The position numbers and the translations under genes are program-made. A stretch of DNA of 22,168 nt from a virus: IMG/VR virus record IMGVR_UViG_3300046517_000897, positions 1-22,168 of that record; one strand, given 5' to 3'. Shown here one piece after another: positions 3,393-17,053 of this stretch. The notes below the pieces were generated by a model. That model was not told where the DNA came from, made no database searches, and was given only the letters and a program-made list of their open reading frames with translations. Positions within the stretch are counted from its first letter, which is position 1, and every line of letters begins with the position of its first letter.

Positions 3393-3562
3393 TGTCGCTC
3401 CTCTCGTTTCGCCATCTCGAAGTTTCTCTCCCACTCGCACACGCGTCGTTCGATCAGTTCCAGCAGCGTGATGCCCTCAGCCCTGGCCGATGCGAGCGCT
3501 GCCCGCCACGCCCGGTTGCCCTCGTCCCACAGGCGGTTCGCAATGACGGCGGCGCGGGTCAT
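3389..3562 (-). CDS. Small hypothetical protein (57 aa)
   Basis: A short helical protein beginning MTRAAVIANRLWDEGNRAWR and ending AKREERQ. It contains LWDEGNRAWRAAL and ITLLELIERRVCEWE, and appears mostly alpha-helical with Trp/Glu/Arg content. The evidence that it is real is positional: its ATG overlaps the upstream TGA as ATGA and its own TGA overlaps the ATG of the next gene the same way, so it fills the gap between two genes exactly. Function unknown. Confidence 0.65.
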   Translation of the reverse strand: MTRAAVIANRLWDEGNRAWRAALASARAEGITLLELIERRVCEWERNFEMAKREERQ

Positions 3563-3756
3563 GCGGAACGCTCGCTCTTTGCCGGCGGCTGTTCACCGTC
3601 CCACTCGCAATTGCAGCATGACCACTCGTCGGTGGTCTCGTCGACTGGCAGGAAGTCCCAGTCCTGGCATTCGTGCGCCCATTTGCCGTCCAGCACCCGG
3701 CCTCTCCAGTGCATGCAGGACGCCTCCCATTCTTCCAGGGTGTCAGTGCCGGCCAT
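3559..3756 (-). CDS. Small Cys/Trp-rich protein, first gene of the leftward operon
   Basis: A 65-residue acidic protein with ASCMHWRGR, HECQDWDF and EWSCCNCEW, giving five cysteines, two histidines and five to six tryptophans. It is a likely small zinc-binding protein of unknown role. A G-rich GGGGGA lies about 9 nt before the ATG. The stop overlaps the next ATG as ATGA. It is the first gene after the candidate leftward promoter at 3930-3958. Confidence 0.65.
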   Translation of the reverse strand: MAGTDTLEEWEASCMHWRGRVLDGKWAHECQDWDFLPVDETTDEWSCCNCEWDGEQPPAKSERSA

Positions 3757-3774
3757 CTGCTATCGTCCCCCGCC

Positions 3775-4221
3775 GTGAAGCGACCGCTCGATGCCGAAGT
3801 CACCCGCGCTCGCCGACGGCGCGACCGACTCGCCGCGCAGCTGGCAGCCGAGGATGCGGCTCTGGAGGCGCTGCTTCGGGCGCAGCGGGAGTTGCTCGAG
3901 GCGGTCGTTCAGTATCAACACGGGAAAGAAGTCTTGCACAATCAACACAGCGGTGCAAAGCTTATCGACACAATGGATGCAGAAACCGCAGTCAGAGGCG
4001 CTCGGCTCGAAACGAAACACCCAGCGGCGCTGAAGATCCGCAAGGTGAACGGTTCGATAGCTCGGTTCGCCGACAAGCACGGCCTGGAATCCACGACGGT
4101 TCGCAGCTGGTACGCCACAGGGACCGCCGCCCGCAAGATTCCCAAGAAGTACATGGAACTGCTGGCCAAGCCCCCCTATTCGATCGCCGTCACGGCCTGG
4201 CGCAACGGCGTCTCAGAGTAG
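3775..4221 (+). CDS. Cro/CI-like helix-turn-helix regulator, possibly with N-terminal coiled coil
   Basis: The C-terminal 80 residues look like a small phage repressor. SIARFADKHGLESTTVRSWYATG fits a helix-turn-helix in which helix 3 carries TTVRSW, followed by ARKIPKKYMELL, the IP-x-x motif common after Cro/YdaS-type domains. The preceding part (AAQLAAEDAALEALLRAQRE and on) predicts a coiled coil, perhaps for dimerisation. Start is uncertain: GTG at 3775 gives 148 residues and keeps a strongly coding codon pattern from 3775 to about 3912, while ATG at 3973 gives 82 residues and lies just after the operator cluster. No good Shine-Dalgarno precedes either. It sits between two mirrored promoter candidates, so it is the probable immunity or early regulator and likely autoregulates. 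Confidence 0.68.
   Translation: MKRPLDAEVTRARRRRDRLAAQLAAEDAALEALLRAQRELLEAVVQYQHGKEVLHNQHSGAKLIDTMDAETAVRGARLETKHPAALKIRKVNGSIARFADKHGLESTTVRSWYATGTAARKIPKKYMELLAKPPYSIAVTAWRNGVSE
3914..3971. repeat. Operator-like repeats ATCRACAC and a TTGCAC/GTGCAA dyad
   Basis: Three copies of ATCRACAC lie in the same orientation at 3914-3921 (ATCAACAC), 3941-3948 (ATCAACAC) and 3964-3971 (ATCGACAC). The middle copy is framed by a perfect inverted repeat, TTGCAC at 3934-3939 and GTGCAA at 3953-3958, 13 bp apart. The segment is clearly AT-richer than its surroundings. Matching inverted copies lie beyond the helix-turn-helix gene at 4236-4277. This is how a phage repressor operator region is expected to look; binding itself is inferred. 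Confidence 0.6.
3930..3958 (-). promoter_or_regulatory. Candidate leftward promoter under operator control
   Basis: Read on the minus strand, a TTGCAC -35-like hexamer (3958-3953) is followed by 17 bp and an AAGACT -10-like hexamer (3935-3930). The spacer contains GTGTTGAT, the reverse complement of the operator word. The hexamers match the consensus only 3 of 6 each, but the arrangement mirrors the rightward candidate at 4250-4278. Transcription would start near 3923 and give a leader of about 165 nt before the gene at 3756. Confidence 0.4.
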
Positions 4222-4245
4222 AAATCGACCGGACTGTGTCGATTT
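4222..4245. repeat. 24-bp perfect dyad after the regulator gene
   Basis: AAATCGAC at 4222-4229 and GTCGATTT at 4238-4245 are perfect inverted copies separated by 8 bp, starting directly after the regulator's TAG. The right arm contains GTGTCGAT, the inverted form of the operator word. It could be a repressor operator or a short transcript-ending hairpin; a T-run after it is lacking, so an operator is favoured. Confidence 0.5.
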
Positions 4246-4249
4246 AGTC

Positions 4250-4278
4250 TTGTGCTGTCTGTGTTGATTGTGTAGATT
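4250..4278 (+). promoter_or_regulatory. Candidate rightward early promoter with operator in the spacer
   Basis: TTGTGC (4250-4255) and TAGATT (4273-4278) are separated by exactly 17 bp. They match the sigma-70 hexamers 3/6 and 4/6. The spacer holds GTGTTGAT (4261-4268), and GTGTAGAT (4270-4277) overlaps the -10. The 14-mer CTGTGTTGATTGTG at 4259-4272 also occurs inverted at 3937-3950. The predicted start is near 4285, on the ATG of the next gene, so the first message may be leaderless. Confidence 0.5.
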
Positions 4279-5478: not shown

Positions 5479-5888
5479 GCACCGACGTTCGCAGCATGTT
5501 CGACAAGGCGTTCCTGTACCACTTCGACCTTCAGGGGCGGGACGTCACTGTCGTGATCGCGAAGGTCACGCAGGGCAAGGTCATGGGGACCGACGGCAAG
5601 GCGCAGAAGAAGCCCGTGATCTACTTCAAGGGCAAGGAGAAGGGCCTCGCGCTGAACATCACCAACGTGCGCACCATCGGATCCATCTACGGCACGTTCG
5701 TGGCTGACAAGTGGGTCGGCAAAACGATCACTTTGTATCCGACCACGACGTCGATGGCTGGCCGTACCGTAGAGTGCATCCGCATCCGCCCGACGAAGCC
5801 CGGCAAGGACGCGCCGATCGACGAGACGCCCGACACCGAGGCGCCGCGGGAGCCTGGTGCCGACGACAGCGACGAGGCGGCGGTATGA
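5475..5888 (+). CDS. Conserved phage protein paired with the RecE-like nuclease
   Basis: 137 residues. The central part, KPVIYFKGKEKGLALNIT followed by GKTITLYPTTT and CIRIRPTKP, is a beta-rich pattern that I recall from phage hypothetical proteins next to PDDEXK exonucleases; no catalytic motif is present. The tail is acidic (DETPDTEAPREPGADDSDE), like tails of DNA-metabolism accessory proteins such as single-strand binding proteins. The gene overlaps the nuclease gene by ATGA, so the two products are probably made together. A beta-barrel DNA-binding or nuclease-accessory role is an inference. Confidence 0.65.
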   Translation: MSTDVRSMFDKAFLYHFDLQGRDVTVVIAKVTQGKVMGTDGKAQKKPVIYFKGKEKGLALNITNVRTIGSIYGTFVADKWVGKTITLYPTTTSMAGRTVECIRIRPTKPGKDAPIDETPDTEAPREPGADDSDEAAV

Positions 5889-6652
5889 GCCTCGAACCTC
5901 TGCGCCACAGCGCGCTCAAGCGCATCGGTCAGTCCCCCGCCCACTTCGCTGCGCACGTCGATGCCTCGGCGAAGTGGCTCGACAAGGGCAGCGGCGCGCA
6001 CTCGGCCATTCTGAGTGGCAAGCGTCTGACGGTGTGGGACAAGAAAAGCGAGGCCGGCAACCAGTGCCCCCGCCGCGGCAAGGACTGGGACGCCTTCAAC
6101 GCCGAGAATCGCGACGCCCTGATCTTGCTGCCCGACGAGTACGAGCAGGTCCAGCGGATCGCCGAGTCTGTTCACCGATGCCCCGAGGCGGTTCGCGTGC
6201 TCCAGGGCGTTCGCGAAACCACCGTGCTCTGGGACGTGCTGGGCCGTCCTTGCCGCGGCACGCCCGACGTCGATGGCGGCGACTTCGTGACCGAGCTGAA
6301 GACCACGAAGTGCGCTGACCCGCGCAAGTTCATGTGGGACTCGCTGCGCTACTCGTACCACGGCGCCCTGGCCTGGTACATGGACGGCCTGGCGATGCAG
6401 CGCGGGCGCAAGGAGATGCCCGAGTCGGCATTCATCGTCGCGGTCGAGTCGTCGGCGCCATTCGCCGTGACGGTGTTCAGGCTGCCAGAGCGGGCGCTTG
6501 AGGCGGGGCGGCGAATGAACCGCCTGTGGCTGGAGCGCCTGCTGGTCTGCGAACAGTCGGGAGAGTTTCCGCCCTACTCGCAGTCGGTCGTGGAGCTCGG
6601 CTTCCCCGAGGACGAGCCGGCGCTGGTGTTCGGCGAGGAGGAAGCGGCGTGA
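5885..6652 (+). CDS. RecE-like PDDEXK exonuclease
   Basis: 255 residues with the layout of the DUF3799/RecE-type PD-(D/E)XK exonucleases. GSGAHSAIL near residue 39 is the N-terminal His motif, GTPDVDGGDFVTELKTTKC supplies Asp128, Glu137 and Lys139, and YSYHGALAWYMDG near 156-168 matches the conserved Q/Y helix. Such enzymes resect double-stranded DNA 5' to 3' to feed an annealing protein in phage recombination. No RecT/Beta/Erf annealase is recognised in the window. The ATG at 5885 overlaps the previous stop as ATGA. Confidence 0.82.
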   Translation: MSLEPLRHSALKRIGQSPAHFAAHVDASAKWLDKGSGAHSAILSGKRLTVWDKKSEAGNQCPRRGKDWDAFNAENRDALILLPDEYEQVQRIAESVHRCPEAVRVLQGVRETTVLWDVLGRPCRGTPDVDGGDFVTELKTTKCADPRKFMWDSLRYSYHGALAWYMDGLAMQRGRKEMPESAFIVAVESSAPFAVTVFRLPERALEAGRRMNRLWLERLLVCEQSGEFPPYSQSVVELGFPEDEPALVFGEEEAA

Positions 6653-7116: not shown

Positions 7117-8073
7117 TTGGACGATGCCGAGCTGCGCGCGATCCTCGCTGCGCAGGCGCGATTGATTGCAGAGCTATCGGAACGCCTTGCGCCTGCGCGC
7201 AAGACCGTGCCGCTGGGAGAGCTCTACGCGCGGTACGAGGTGGCGCAGCAGCACCGGCCCGGCTGGCGGTCGGCCAAGTGCATGCTGGGGCCTATCGTGG
7301 CGCAGCTGGGCACCCATGACGTCGCCAGCCTCCAGGTTGCCGACTGGACGGCATACCGCGTGCGCCGTAGCGACCTGGCGCCGTCGTCGCTCAACTACTC
7401 CATGCGCGTGCTGAAGGCGCTGCTGCGGTGGGGGAAGGCCGAGGGGCTGGTGGAAACGTTGCCGCAGCTGCTGGAGGCGAAGAAGCAGAAGGCGAAGCGC
7501 CACCGCGAGACGGCGCCGACGCAGGCCGAGGTTGGCCGGCTGCTCGATGAGGCCGACCGGGCGCGGGACCGGGTCATCGTGCTGTGCGCCTGCGATGCCG
7601 GCATGAGGAACACCGAGATCCGCAAGCTTGAGCGGGCATGGGTCGACCGGGCGCGCATGGAGATCCGCCTGCCCGACACCATCACGAAGGGCCACAAGAG
7701 CCGCGTGGTGCCGATGACGTCGCGGCTGCTGGCGGCCATCGATGCGATCCCTCGTGATATCCGCTCACCGCTTGTGCTGGTCTCGCCGCGCAGCGGAGGC
7801 CCGTACTCGCAAGGGCACATGACGATCATGTGGCGACGGCTGGCCGAACTCGCGCAGCTTGAGGCAGCACCGGGCGAGCGTCGCGTGCGGCTTCACGACG
7901 GTCGCCACGGCGCCGGGACGAACATGGCCGAGGCGGGCGTGCCTATAGAGATCATCCAGCGCATCCTCGGCCATGCCTCGCTCGACCAGACCGCCGACTA
8001 CGTCCAGCGCCGAAGCGGAGACCTGCCGAGGGCCCGCGCGCTCCTCGAAGCCGTCATCAAGCGCGACAGCTAG
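7117..8073 (+). CDS. int: Tyrosine recombinase / phage integrase
   Basis: 318 residues with a core-binding SAM-like domain (about residues 30-125) and a C-terminal catalytic domain. Catalytic residues read as Arg164 in DAGMRNTEI, Lys191 or Lys194 in TKGHKSR, His260 and Arg263 in LHDGRHG, His286 in LGHASLDQT and nucleophile Tyr295 in ADYVQRR. The usual box II LHDLRH is LHDGRH here, a mild variation. The TTG start is chosen because GGGGGGA lies about 5 nt upstream and no better in-frame start exists. It would integrate and, with a directionality factor, excise the phage. The gene-free stretch after it is the natural site for attP. Confidence 0.93.
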   Translation: MDDAELRAILAAQARLIAELSERLAPARKTVPLGELYARYEVAQQHRPGWRSAKCMLGPIVAQLGTHDVASLQVADWTAYRVRRSDLAPSSLNYSMRVLKALLRWGKAEGLVETLPQLLEAKKQKAKRHRETAPTQAEVGRLLDEADRARDRVIVLCACDAGMRNTEIRKLERAWVDRARMEIRLPDTITKGHKSRVVPMTSRLLAAIDAIPRDIRSPLVLVSPRSGGPYSQGHMTIMWRRLAELAQLEAAPGERRVRLHDGRHGAGTNMAEAGVPIEIIQRILGHASLDQTADYVQRRSGDLPRARALLEAVIKRDS

Positions 8074-9292: not shown

Positions 9293-10374
9293 AGACCTTC
9301 ACGGCCCCTATCGCCAGCATCAGACGAGACGGCGGCACGCAGATCCGCGCGGCCCTCGACGAGGCGACGGTGGCTGCCTACGCGGAGGCCATCAAGGCTG
9401 GCGTGAAGCTGCCGCCGGTGCGCGTGTGGGACGACATCAAGACGTTGTGGCTGTCGGACGGATTCCACCGCGTCGAGGCAGCCCTTCGTGCGGGACTGGA
9501 GCGCATCAACGTCGAGCGGGTCAATGGTGGCCAGCGAGACGCCCTGCTCGACGCCATCGGGGCCAACGCCGCGCATGGGCTGCCTCGCAGCAACGCCGAC
9601 AAGCGCCGCGCCATCGAGGCCATGCTGGCCGACCCCGAGTGGGTGACATGGACAGACCGCCGCATCGCCGCCGCCGCCCACGTCGGGCACGAGCTGGTGG
9701 CGCGCGTCAGGGAGGAGAGCATTGGCGGAAACGCCATTGCTCCAACCCGCAAGGCGGCCGACGGGCGCCAGTTCCCGGCCTCGCGAGGCAAAGATTCGTC
9801 GCCGGGACAACCAACCGCCGTCCCTCCTGCTCCCGCGGCGAACCCGGCACCGAAGGACGAGGGGGCGGGCGTCACGGGCGCCGCGCAACCAGCGGCGATG
9901 CACCCAGCGCCCGCCCCCGATGAGCCGCCACCGGTCGACATGCTCGGCCTCGAAGTCTCTGGCATGTGGATGGACACGGTACGCGTCGTGGTCAGCACCT
10001 GCGAGGCGATCGACCGAGAGTTGCGCCAGCTCATGGCCTCGGCGCGGTCTCTGCCGCAACCGACGCAGCAACGGCTCTGGTCGGCGCTGCATGACGCGGC
10101 GGCTTGCGCCAGGGCGGTGCGGCCGGCGGTGGCGTGCCCGTTCTGCAAGGCGGCGGGCGGTGACTGCCTGTCATGCGCGGGCAACGGCTGGCTGAGCGAG
10201 GAGGGCAAGGGCGGCGTGCACCCGGCGGTGTTACGGGGGGAGACACCGCCGGCGCAGCGCGACCGCTACAAGCCGATCGAGAAGGTCGGGCGGTACGCGC
10301 CGACGACGAAGACGCTGACGATCGAACTGGTCGACGACGTGCCCGATCTGACGGACGACGACCTTGCGTTCTGA
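9289..10374 (+). CDS. ParB/Srx-fold protein with C-terminal zinc cluster
   Basis: 361 residues. The N-terminal 100 residues match the ParB/Srx fold: GGTQIRAALDEATVAAYAEA, PPVRVWDD, then LSDGFHRVEAALRAG, the D-G-x-H-R box of phage ParB-like proteins. RSNADKRRAIEAMLADPEW and RRIAAAAHVGHELVARV (about 100-145) are a helical DNA-binding candidate. A Pro/Ala linker follows (about 165-215), then CPFCKAAGGDCLSCAGNGW near 284-302, a DnaJ-like zinc motif. Chromosomal ParB proteins bind DNA and CTP; phage versions are also proposed as nucleases or regulators. No ParA partner is present, so plasmid-style partition is unlikely on this evidence. GTG start by GTGA overlap. Confidence 0.75.
   Translation: MKTFTAPIASIRRDGGTQIRAALDEATVAAYAEAIKAGVKLPPVRVWDDIKTLWLSDGFHRVEAALRAGLERINVERVNGGQRDALLDAIGANAAHGLPRSNADKRRAIEAMLADPEWVTWTDRRIAAAAHVGHELVARVREESIGGNAIAPTRKAADGRQFPASRGKDSSPGQPTAVPPAPAANPAPKDEGAGVTGAAQPAAMHPAPAPDEPPPVDMLGLEVSGMWMDTVRVVVSTCEAIDRELRQLMASARSLPQPTQQRLWSALHDAAACARAVRPAVACPFCKAAGGDCLSCAGNGWLSEEGKGGVHPAVLRGETPPAQRDRYKPIEKVGRYAPTTKTLTIELVDDVPDLTDDDLAF
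9721..9738. repeat. Dispersed GNRA-hairpin repeat, copy 1 (variant)
   Basis: An 18-nt sequence, ATT-GGCG-GAAA-CGCC-ATT, that folds as TGGCG/CGCCA with a GAAA loop. It differs from the identical copies at 17066-17083 and 19171-19188 only in having ATT at both ends where they have AAT. It lies in the reading frame of the ParB-like gene, in the linker, reading IGGNAI. Confidence 0.65.
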
Positions 10375-10381
10375 GGCGCTG

Positions 10382-12079
10382 ATGTTCGAGTTCGCTGGGA
10401 CGGGCGGGGCGGTGGCAGAGGCGGGGGACCAGGACGGACTCCGCAGCTACCAACGCGAGTGCGTCGAGTCGGTGCGTCGCGAACTGCAGACGGTTCGGTC
10501 GACGCTGGCGGTGCTGTTCACCGGCGCCGGCAAGACGCAGATCGGCGGGACGCTGGTCAAGCACTGGCCTGGGCGCGTGCTCTGGCTGGCCCACCGTGAC
10601 GAGTTGATCCGTCAGGCAGCGGCTCGGATCCACCAGATGGCAGGCGAGCAGCCGAGTATAGACATGGCCGGCGAGTACAGTTGGGGCTCGCGCATCGTAG
10701 TTGGCAGTGTCCAGACGCTGCAGCGCAAGCGGCTGGAGCGGCACCCGGCGGATCGCTTCTCGCTGGTCGTCATCGATGAGGCCCACCACGCGCCGTCGAA
10801 GTCATACCGCGCCATCCTGGACCACTTCGCGGACGCCAAGGTGGTCGGCATCACCGCGACGGCCGATCGCCTGGACAAGCTCGCGCAGGGCAACGTGTTC
10901 GAGTCGGTGGCGTTTCGCAAGGACATCGACGCCGGCATCGAGGAGGGCTACCTCGTCCCGATTCGGCCGATCGCGAAGCTGATCGAAACGGTCAACCTCG
11001 CCGGCATCAAGACCGCCGCCGGCGACCTGGCCGAGGGCGCGCTGGAAGAGGAGATGCTCAAGAGCGTCGCGGCCATCGCGCGCGCCACCTTCGACACGGT
11101 AGGCGACCGGCGGACGCTAGTGTTCACGCCCGGCGTCGGATCGGCCCATGCCGTGGCGGATGCGCTGAACCAGATGCGGCCCGGTTCGGCGCGCACGGTC
11201 GACGGGACGACCGACAAGGACGTGCGGAAGCGCATCCTCCGCGACCACAAGGCAGGGGAGTTCCAGTTCCTGACGAACTGCCTGGTGTTCACCGAGGGCT
11301 ACGACGACCCGCAGGTGAGCGCCATCGTGAACGCGCGGCCCACCAAGTCGAGGGCGCTCTATGTCCAGGTCGCCGGCCGGGGACTGCGCGTGCTGCCTGG
11401 CATCGGCGAGTTGGCGACGGTAGAGGAGCGGCGCGCGGCGGTGGCGGCTAGCTCGAAGCCTGACTGCCTGCTGGTCGACATCACCGGCCACGCGGGACGG
11501 CACTCGCTCATCGCGCCGGCTGACCTGCTCGGCGGCAAGTACACCGAGGCCGAGGTGACGCTCGCCAAGGAGCTGCTGGCCAAGGATGGCGGCGAGCTGG
11601 TCGAGACGCTCGACAAGGCGCGCGGGCAACTCATCAAGCAGGCGGCCGAGGTCGAGCAGAAGCGCAAGGCCGATGCTGCGCGGGCCGCGGCTGCTGATGT
11701 GAGGCACCGGACCGCGACGTTCGACCTGTTCGGCAAGTACGGCGTGCCCGAGATGGGGGACGATGCCGGCGGGCAAGCTGGAGACCCGCCGACCGGCGAT
11801 GACCTGCAGTGGCTCGGCGCCAACAAGCTGCCCGTAGCCGGCTTGTCGCGCGCCGACGTGCAGAAGCTGCAGCGCACGGCCGCAGTGTGGCGTCGGCACG
11901 GCTTCGCGACGTTCAAGCAGCGGCGCACGCTCGGCACCGTCGGCATCCCGACGCCGCACAACCTGTCGTTCGCGACGGCCTCGACGCTGATTCAACACGT
12001 CATCGACACGCGGTTCCGCCCCAATCGCGAGTACGTCGCTGGGTTCTTTAAGGGGCGTGATGTGGGGGCAGAAGGATGA
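10382..12079 (+). CDS. Superfamily 2 DEAH-type helicase
   Basis: 565 residues. Motifs in order: Q-like motif LRSYQREC (20-27), Walker A TGAGKT (47-52), HRDEL motif Ia, DEAH box (132-135), motif III TATADR (158-163), then a second RecA domain with TLVFTPGVGSAHAVADAL, motif V TEGYDDP and motif VI QVAGRGLR with its arginines. The last 150 residues hold a helical coiled coil (AAEVEQKRKADAARAAA) and a C-terminal domain without a known motif. Such enzymes unwind or remodel nucleic acids with ATP, and here probably support replication or recombination. ATG at 10382 is chosen over TTG at 10364 because GAGG lies 6 nt upstream. It ends by ATGA overlap with the next gene. Confidence 0.88.
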   Translation: MFEFAGTGGAVAEAGDQDGLRSYQRECVESVRRELQTVRSTLAVLFTGAGKTQIGGTLVKHWPGRVLWLAHRDELIRQAAARIHQMAGEQPSIDMAGEYSWGSRIVVGSVQTLQRKRLERHPADRFSLVVIDEAHHAPSKSYRAILDHFADAKVVGITATADRLDKLAQGNVFESVAFRKDIDAGIEEGYLVPIRPIAKLIETVNLAGIKTAAGDLAEGALEEEMLKSVAAIARATFDTVGDRRTLVFTPGVGSAHAVADALNQMRPGSARTVDGTTDKDVRKRILRDHKAGEFQFLTNCLVFTEGYDDPQVSAIVNARPTKSRALYVQVAGRGLRVLPGIGELATVEERRAAVAASSKPDCLLVDITGHAGRHSLIAPADLLGGKYTEAEVTLAKELLAKDGGELVETLDKARGQLIKQAAEVEQKRKADAARAAAADVRHRTATFDLFGKYGVPEMGDDAGGQAGDPPTGDDLQWLGANKLPVAGLSRADVQKLQRTAAVWRRHGFATFKQRRTLGTVGIPTPHNLSFATASTLIQHVIDTRFRPNREYVAGFFKGRDVGAEG

Positions 12080-15259: not shown

Positions 15260-15587
15260 TCCTACCGGCCGACAATCGGAGCATCCCAACCTGCGCCCCA
15301 ACCCGGCTTGGGTAAAGGGCGGGCCATCGCCAAACCCAACCGGCGGCGAGAGCCCATACCACCGCAAGCTGCGGCTGGCCATCGAGAAGCAGGAACCGGT
15401 CGAGAATGTGTGCGCCGTGGTTGCAGCGATGCGGGAAGACGCCATGGCTCACGAGAAGCACAGCGCCGCGGCAGCCAAGGTCTACTTCGCGGCTGTCGGC
15501 CTGCCCATGAACCGCGAGCCGCCCAAGGTCGACCTGTCAAAGGCGCCTGACGACGTCGTGAACTGGCTCGCTGACAACGTGCAGTAA
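15249..15587 (+). CDS. Small terminase subunit candidate (DUF5681-like)
   Basis: 112 residues. The N-terminus (PNPAWVKGGPSPNPTGGES) is the Gly/Pro/Asn-rich entry seen in DUF5681-type phage proteins, followed by a helical bundle (HRKLRLAIEKQEPVENVC, then AMREDAMAHEKHSAAAAKVY). Such proteins bind DNA ends or pac sites and hand them to the large subunit. The gene directly precedes, and overlaps by TAATG, the large terminase gene. The assignment rests on position and this N-terminal pattern. Confidence 0.6.
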   Translation: MPLDPTGRQSEHPNLRPNPAWVKGGPSPNPTGGESPYHRKLRLAIEKQEPVENVCAVVAAMREDAMAHEKHSAAAAKVYFAAVGLPMNREPPKVDLSKAPDDVVNWLADNVQ

Positions 15588-17053
15588 TGGCCGAGAGCGC
15601 AGCGCAGTTGCAGGCGCGCGCCAAGGCTGAGCGAGAGCGCCGCAGGCCACCAGGCGCGCGCAGCATCGACCTGGACCGCGTCTGCCACCGCCGGCAGGCG
15701 TCGCTGGTGCGGACGCTCGTCCTGCGCAAGGTACGCAACGTCTGTGCGCTGGCGGGCCGGCAGAGCGGCAAGAGCCACGGCGGTGCGCTGGCCTGCGCTC
15801 TCATCGCCGCCGACACGCCCCAGGTGAACGTTGTCTACGTGACCAGTACCTACGCCAGCTGCAAGCGCATGGCGTTCCTGCCAGCGGTGGAGCACAACCG
15901 CGTTCACGCGCTCGGTGGCGACCCGAACTACGCCGAGATGACCATCGGCTTCCCGAACGGGAGCCGCGTCTACTTCATGGGCGCCGACACGGACCGGTTG
16001 ATCGACCGGCTGCGCGGCATCCCGAACCTGGTGCTGGTGCTCATCGACGAGGCGGGCATCTACGGCAGCGACAAGCTCAAGACCATGATCGAGGCGGTGC
16101 GTCCCGGCCTGCGCCCGATGTCGGGGACGCTGTGCGTGATGGGCACGCCTTCGCTGGCGGGCCGCGCGGGGACGTGGTTCGAGATCACCGAGAATGCCCA
16201 CTTCGAGCAGCACCGATTCGACTACCGCGACAACGACCGCGTGCCATCGTTCGCCGCGGTGGAGACGCTGATCGACGACGAGCTCGCGGCGATGGGGCTC
16301 ACGCGGGAGAGCGCGTACTTCAAGCGCGAGTACCTGGCCCTCTTCGAGGTAGACCTGAGCGAGAGCGCGTTCCGCTACGACCGCGCGCGCGCCGGCTATG
16401 AAGGCGACCCGCCCGAGGGCCTGAGCATGTTCGCGGTCGGCATCGACCCGGGCACACGCGACCGCACGGCAATCCAGGTATGGGGCTGGGGCGAGCAGGA
16501 ACACGCCGTCTACCACGTCTACGAGTGGGTCACCGAGCGCAACGCCGGCACGACCTGGGCGCAGATTGGCGCCGAGCTGGGGCGCATCCGAGAGCGCTGG
16601 GACCCGCATGCCTGGTACTACGATGCAGGCGGCTCGAAGATGACGCTGGACCTGTTCGCACGCGACTATGGCATCCCCGTCATCAAGGCGGCGGTGAAGG
16701 CGGACCTTCCTGGCCAGGTGTCTCGGTTCGCCGACCTGCTGGCCAAAGGGCAGGCTCGCATCCGCATCGGCTCGGCGCTCGAGCACGACCTGCAGCGCGC
16801 GCAGTGGGACCGAGACGCGCGCATTCAGGGCCGCTACAGCTGGTCGGCCATCTGCCACCCTGACGCCGCCGACGCCGCACGCTACGGGCTGCAGGCGTAC
16901 TTCGACTCGTTCCGCCCGCCGCTGACCGACCATGACCGGTACCTCGAAGGCATCCGCCGAGCTGAGCAACTCGCCCTTGAGAACCGCGCCGTGCAGCACG
17001 AGTACAGCGGCGACGACGAGTTTCAAAATGACGAGTACAGCGATGTCGCGTAG
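15587..17053 (+). CDS. terL: Terminase large subunit
   Basis: 488 residues. ATPase motor: Walker A GRQSGKS (57-63), Walker B LVLIDEAG (Asp154, Glu155), coupling motif MGTPS (185-189). RNase H-like nuclease: Asp287 in VGIDPGTRDRTAI, Asp346 in YYDAGGSKM, and late acidic residues in HPDAADAARYG. It packages DNA into the procapsid and cuts concatemers. The length is normal for the family. The tail is Asp/Glu-rich (SGDDEFQNDEYSDVA). It is preceded by the probable small subunit and followed by the portal gene. Confidence 0.94.
   Translation: MAESAAQLQARAKAERERRRPPGARSIDLDRVCHRRQASLVRTLVLRKVRNVCALAGRQSGKSHGGALACALIAADTPQVNVVYVTSTYASCKRMAFLPAVEHNRVHALGGDPNYAEMTIGFPNGSRVYFMGADTDRLIDRLRGIPNLVLVLIDEAGIYGSDKLKTMIEAVRPGLRPMSGTLCVMGTPSLAGRAGTWFEITENAHFEQHRFDYRDNDRVPSFAAVETLIDDELAAMGLTRESAYFKREYLALFEVDLSESAFRYDRARAGYEGDPPEGLSMFAVGIDPGTRDRTAIQVWGWGEQEHAVYHVYEWVTERNAGTTWAQIGAELGRIRERWDPHAWYYDAGGSKMTLDLFARDYGIPVIKAAVKADLPGQVSRFADLLAKGQARIRIGSALEHDLQRAQWDRDARIQGRYSWSAICHPDAADAARYGLQAYFDSFRPPLTDHDRYLEGIRRAEQLALENRAVQHEYSGDDEFQNDEYSDVA

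Follow-up and report, generated by a model that had tools for sequence, protein, structure and literature searches.

The sequence analysed, hereafter the window, is IMG/VR virus record IMGVR_UViG_3300046517_000897, a stretch of 22,168 nt with a GC content of 67%. It is a fragment, and megablast found no GenBank phage resembling the whole of it. In the list of open reading frames, leftward genes lie below about position 3756 and rightward early genes above 4285, with a gene for a helix-turn-helix (HTH) regulator between them (Table 1). The rightward early genes include an integrase gene, which suggests that the phage is temperate. No relatives were found for the 62-aa protein encoded by the first rightward gene. 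The first clear leftward gene is preceded by a purine-rich GGGGGA. Another leftward open reading frame (3760-3921) was not adopted as a real gene, as it is antisense to the conserved coiled-coil frame described below.

Table 1. Features in and around the control region (positions in the window; promoter ranks are among all positions on both strands)
Feature	Position	Strand	Remarks
First clear gene of leftward operon	3559-3756	-	From ORF list and sequence; putative operon assignment
Regulator gene, full-length frame from GTG, 148 aa	3775-4221	+	Based on relatives' frames; start codon inferred
HTH part or alternative short product from ATG 3973, 82 aa	3973-4221	+	Gene of the first-pass annotation
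Left operator word ATCAACAC	3914-3921	+	Predicted operator
Candidate leftward promoter PL, TTGCAC-N17-AAGACT	3930-3958	-	Rank 26, local p 0.035
Weak candidate rightward linker promoter, TTGCAC-N17-AAAGCT	3934-3962	+	Rank 56, p about 0.06
Left core operator (predicted), 14-nt arm CACAATCAACACAG	3937-3950	+	In linker codons
Left operator word (predicted) ATCGACAC	3964-3971	+	Ends one base before ATG 3973
Right operator word, GTGTCGAT on + strand	4236-4243	-	Predicted operator
Predicted rightward promoter PR, TTGTGC-N17-TAGATT	4250-4278	+	Rank 2 in window
Right core operator, mirrored 14-nt arm	4259-4272	-	Predicted operator
Right operator word (predicted) GTGTAGAT	4270-4277	-	Overlaps -10; 9 bp after GTGTTGAT (tandem)
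First gene of rightward operon, 62 aa	4285-4473	+	Message probably leaderless
RecE-like exonuclease	5882-6649		Rightward early gene
Tyrosine integrase	7117-8073		Rightward early gene
Helicase	10364-12079		Rightward early gene
Terminase	15587-17053		After helicase

Related contigs were found through RecE and a neighbouring conserved protein, and two more through the regulator of one of them, L009. A homologous regulator near homologous early genes is present in five (L003, L008, L009, L019 and L021; the last three are referred to as the L009 group), and no convincing member of the regulator family was found in L004 and L011-L017. One of these more distant relatives with the same early genes has, close to the end of its contig (L011:3-785), oppositely directed genes for two HTH-like proteins, which resemble an ordinary divergent CI/Cro pair.

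The first-pass annotation placed the regulator in a small HTH gene, 3973-4221. This describes the HTH part of the protein and was rejected for the gene as a whole, as relatives have a homologous open frame upstream, and that of the window reaches GTG 3775. Homologous full-length frames of 156-166 aa, with the coiled coil first and the HTH C-terminal, occur in L008 and the L009 group, and the window frame is likewise open from GTG 3775. L003 has an in-frame stop that truncates the N-terminal part; its N-terminal frame is lost and the HTH kept. The L003 remnant ALLRAQAELIDAVVEE still matches ALLRAQRELLEAVVQY of the window, and differences between the two fall 3, 1 and 10 times at the three codon positions, a third-position bias (binomial p 0.004). 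Thus, the full-length regulator probably consists of an N-terminal coiled coil, a linker and a C-terminal Cro/C1-type HTH. AlphaFold models residues 5-62 of the window protein as a long helix (pLDDT about 95) and the C-terminal HTH region as helical, the latter with only moderate confidence.

The window regulator shows 23 to 35% identity to those of its relatives and its HTH part matches L009 in tblastn (E 2e-7). The L009 regulator scores 23.6 bits against the Pfam HTH_3 model (curated cut-off 23). Against HTH models the window protein has no match on its own; its link to the HTH family is homology to L009. Searches of GenBank phages and IMG/VR proteins with the 82-aa protein found nothing, and neither fold comparison of the regulator model with solved structures nor a profile search of solved-structure sequences gave a significant match.

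Two clusters of a short word flank the HTH-coding part of this gene. As originally reported, ATCRACAC occurs exactly at 3914, 3941 and 3964 on the + strand and as its complement at 4236 and 4261, with the one-mismatch copy GTGTAGAT at 4270. The 14-nt inverted repeat built on the core words, CACAATCAACACAG at 3937-3950 (+) and 4259-4272 (-), is also exact, and the window holds no further copy with two or fewer mismatches. Of nine exact ATCRACAC octamers in the 22-kb window, five fall within 355 nt (p ~8e-6, corrected for how many such stretches the window contains, for a word chosen post hoc). In 3000 local dinucleotide shuffles a 14-nt inverted repeat never arose and a 13-nt one arose once. 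As several other exact 14-nt inverted repeats exist elsewhere in the window, the evidence lies in position and clustering, not in length. Neither ATCRACAC nor CACAATCAACACAG is self-complementary, so the predicted operators are non-palindromic, and both clusters point outward. Overlooked before was a tandem of 9-bp period formed by the words at 4261 and 4270; this GTGTTGATT-GTGTAGATT tandem covers the -10 box of PR (4261-4278). Since the regulator frame runs upstream to GTG 3775, it is the linker codons of the regulator gene itself that hold the left cluster (3913-3972).

Promoters were scored with sigma70-type weights from textbook E. coli frequencies, which may not be those of the host. Both promoter-like pairs named in the first-pass annotation, PR and PL, are present. 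A strict consensus scan found no promoter at the locus, and AT-rich patches inflate promoter scores in a genome of such high GC content. At the right cluster, scores are locally high in every lineage. Support is good for the right-hand promoter, whereas the left-hand one is no more than plausible. The mirrored L003 counterpart of PL (TTGCAT-N17-CAGAAT) ranks third. TTGCAC...GTGCAA around 3934-3958 yields a weak rightward match too, which had escaped notice; two opposite candidates therefore overlap in the linker, both weak in the window. L008 and the L009 group combine a weak leftward promoter with a rightward linker promoter that scores far better (TTGACT-N17-TATCGT, rank 1 in L009 and L019; TTGACT-N17-CACACT, rank 2 in L008). 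These sequences are made of codons homologous to those at 3934-3962 of the window. The linker may also, or instead of the leftward promoter, hold a rightward one, and the left cluster may not serve the same role in every phage.

The top promoter-like score of the window belongs to TTGATT-N16-TAATCT at 4301-4274 (-), antisense to the regulator and overlapping the PR -10 box. Its counterparts in L008 and L003 are weaker, and it was not adopted as part of the scheme, which leaves it unexplained.

The PR -10 box ends 6 nt before ATG 4285, another feature missing from the first-pass annotation, and the gap between this box and the ATG of the next gene is 6-7 nt in the window, L003, L008, L009, L019 and L021. 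With the usual distance between -10 box and start point, transcripts would start on the ATG or right beside it, which makes a leaderless early mRNA probable. In contrast, leftward genes with - strand starts at L003:4322 and L009:3332 have a strong AAGGAGG ribosome-binding site, and the two operons seem to differ in their mode of translation.

The overlapping candidates in the linker allow a different reading, which we regard as unlikely yet worth keeping in view: one gene gives two products. A rightward linker promoter would drive a leaderless HTH-only protein and an upstream promoter the full coiled-coil protein; the balance between these forms would be set by the linker operators, with the leftward promoter secondary or absent. 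The high ranks of the rightward linker promoter in L009, L019 and L008 point this way, as do an in-frame GTG or ATG 7 nt past the rightward candidate in L003, L008 and the L009 group and the retention of the HTH in L003 despite the loss of its N-terminal frame. However, the window's own rightward candidate is weak and 10 nt away from ATG 3973 instead of 7. A literature search on internal promoters yielding truncated phage repressors found nothing. Slightly less likely still is a version in which the one gene would provide both arms of a lysis-lysogeny switch, with long coiled-coil-HTH and short HTH-only forms, nested promoters, leaderless starts and an operator in the linker codons that also commands the opposite operon. 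Were this so, the shared operator word, being written into linker codons, would evolve under protein-coding constraint while changing with the HTH.

The arrangement of the window is repeated in its relatives with different words. Each related lineage (L003, L008 and the L009 group) carries a repeated word of its own in the two positions that the words of the window occupy around the HTH gene, and these words are almost absent elsewhere in the contigs of 36-38 kb. The L003 word, AGWATGTGMA, has five sites, two around the start of the HTH gene and three past its end, and no other with one mismatch or fewer in the 36-kb contig. In L008, the arms of a 21-nt inverted repeat (81% complementary) lie in the linker and upstream of the next gene, respectively; the L008 word is confined to these clusters in 37 kb. 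In the L009 group, CGTATCNNCNGTATC occurs in the linker and ahead of the next gene (at PR), and the words form a CGTATC tandem with the 9-bp period of the window. The longest-exact-repeat test works for the window and L003 and is not significant for L008 and L009; as the repeats of the latter two are imperfect or tandem, the evidence there is the genome-wide confinement of the word. The mirrored arrangement described by the first-pass annotation is found in the window, L003 and L008, but the words of the L009 group are in direct orientation, and mirror symmetry was rejected as a general rule.

Two of the three L009-group phages have a third CGTATCNNCNGTATC site. It lies in a promoter of TATCAT-6 nt-ATG geometry that precedes a lipoprotein-like gene transcribed oppositely to the late genes on either side. 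The small genes concerned, L043:1472-1921 (+) and L044:801-568 (-), lie among late genes on the opposite strand and carry the operator word of their own phages. The L043 protein has a HEMAH motif, suggestive of a metallopeptidase. VACG-type lipoprotein signals in L003:1166-1804, L043 and L044 might hint at a myxobacterial or related host.

The left words could be codons that are alike by chance or through an old duplication, with the right cluster alone a working operator. PL is weak in the window, the left cluster is in coding sequence and the L009-group words are not mirrored, all of which such a reading would explain. It is nevertheless improbable, because every lineage has a linker cluster, made up of a word of its own, and the 14-nt identity was not reached in local shuffles. 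Furthermore, GC3 of the linker is depressed in four lineages (30/59, compared with 437/533 in the rest of the genes). In the L009 group, synonymous codons of the linker are more conserved than others (13/14 and 69/109, respectively; p 0.03).

The repeats, their positions, the layout conserved in relatives, the coding frame and the promoter-like sequences with their fixed -10 to ATG spacing can be read from the sequences; beyond these, we infer that the regulator recognises the words, represses rather than activates, controls its own gene and acts in lysogeny. Judged from sequence, the locus is likely to control the early genes of a temperate tailed phage, probably as its immunity region, with the HTH regulator acting at both word clusters. 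The Cro/C1-type protein, with an N-terminal coiled coil when full-length, would bind the short asymmetric words. On the left these lie in linker codons of the regulator gene, over the candidate leftward promoter and over or beside the possible internal rightward promoter; on the right they lie just past the gene, over the predicted rightward promoter of the early genes (exonuclease, integrase and helicase). Bound protein would silence both outward operons. With one cluster inside the regulator's own gene, the simplest model is that the regulator limits its own expression, blocking either the internal promoter or the passage of RNA polymerase through the linker. The rightward mRNA, with its 5' end at or beside the ATG, would be translated without a leader. 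That one regulator serves both outward operons, much as first proposed, is the best-supported reading, and the layout recurs in three other lineages; its weaker part is the leftward promoter, which scores poorly in the window.

The main argument that the regulator reads these words is that HTH protein and word change together among relatives, as a repressor and its operators should. The pairing of word and regulator is drawn from sequence, and a host protein might bind the words in place of the neighbouring phage protein. This seems very improbable: word and HTH protein differ together between phages, and apart from one extra promoter in two phages the word is confined to the surroundings of the HTH gene. 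If the hosts are shared, a host factor would tend to maintain a single word common to all the phages.

Whether the protein is the repressor itself is a separate matter. It could activate, or regulate lytic growth in the manner of Cro or Cox, with the true repressor elsewhere, on missing sequence or from another family. The window is a 22-kb fragment, weak PHROG matches of its protein include both Cox-like excisionase and repressor models, and the families searched in the relatives, whose contigs may be incomplete, were HTH_3 and S24. Against this, the three 38-kb L009-group contigs carry an integrase and hold no HTH_3 protein besides the regulator and no S24 protein, and words overlapping -10 boxes and spacers are usual for repressor sites. 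We therefore hold a lytic regulator or activator to be a lesser possibility, and keep to a repressor acting on both clusters. No S24-type CI (PF00717) was found in the window, itself a fragment, and six related contigs, and an integrase is present in the window and four of five relatives. The sole HTH_3 protein of the L009 group, the lack of a detected S24-type CI and the integrases fit a lysogeny repressor without proving one.

The locus appears to be a compact phage control region: the predicted left operators sit within the codons for the linker of the probable repressor itself, and the early genes are, as indicated by the spacing, probably leaderless. As the layout is kept while operator word and HTH protein change, the relatives offer natural pairs for studying the evolution of repressor specificity. 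The predicted operators can be tested directly by gel shift.

The proposed scheme would work like lambda OL/OR, P2 C or L5, yet it departs from each in at least one defining feature. In lambda, outward early promoters are overlapped by related operators of CI and Cro, with the repressor gene between them. In the window and L003, promoter-like pairs with predicted operators point outward to left and right; the leftward member is weak in L008 and the L009 group. In contrast to lambda, with its palindromic operators and divergent CI/Cro pair, the words here are asymmetric, there is a single regulator gene, the left operators are inside its coding linker and no S24 domain was found.

P2 C is a small HTH repressor that binds non-palindromic direct repeats around the -10 box of the early promoter; these direct repeats are 8 bp long, and 22 bp separate their centres (PMC4752584). 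The predicted operator around the PR -10 box (4261-4278) and the CGTATC tandem of the L009 group are similarly non-palindromic direct repeats. However, the locus described here combines a 9-bp tandem with individual words in two clusters, and its protein carries a coiled coil; a search of the window protein gave no significant P2 C-like match. In addition, regulator and next gene are co-directional, whereas C and cox are divergent in P2.

The repressor of mycobacteriophage L5 (cluster A) binds asymmetric sites oriented with transcription (PMC9283540). Sites in the window are also asymmetric, and both clusters point outward. In contrast, L5 has a monomeric two-domain repressor and more than 20 operators and stoperators across its genome, whereas the sites described here are concentrated at only two or three places.
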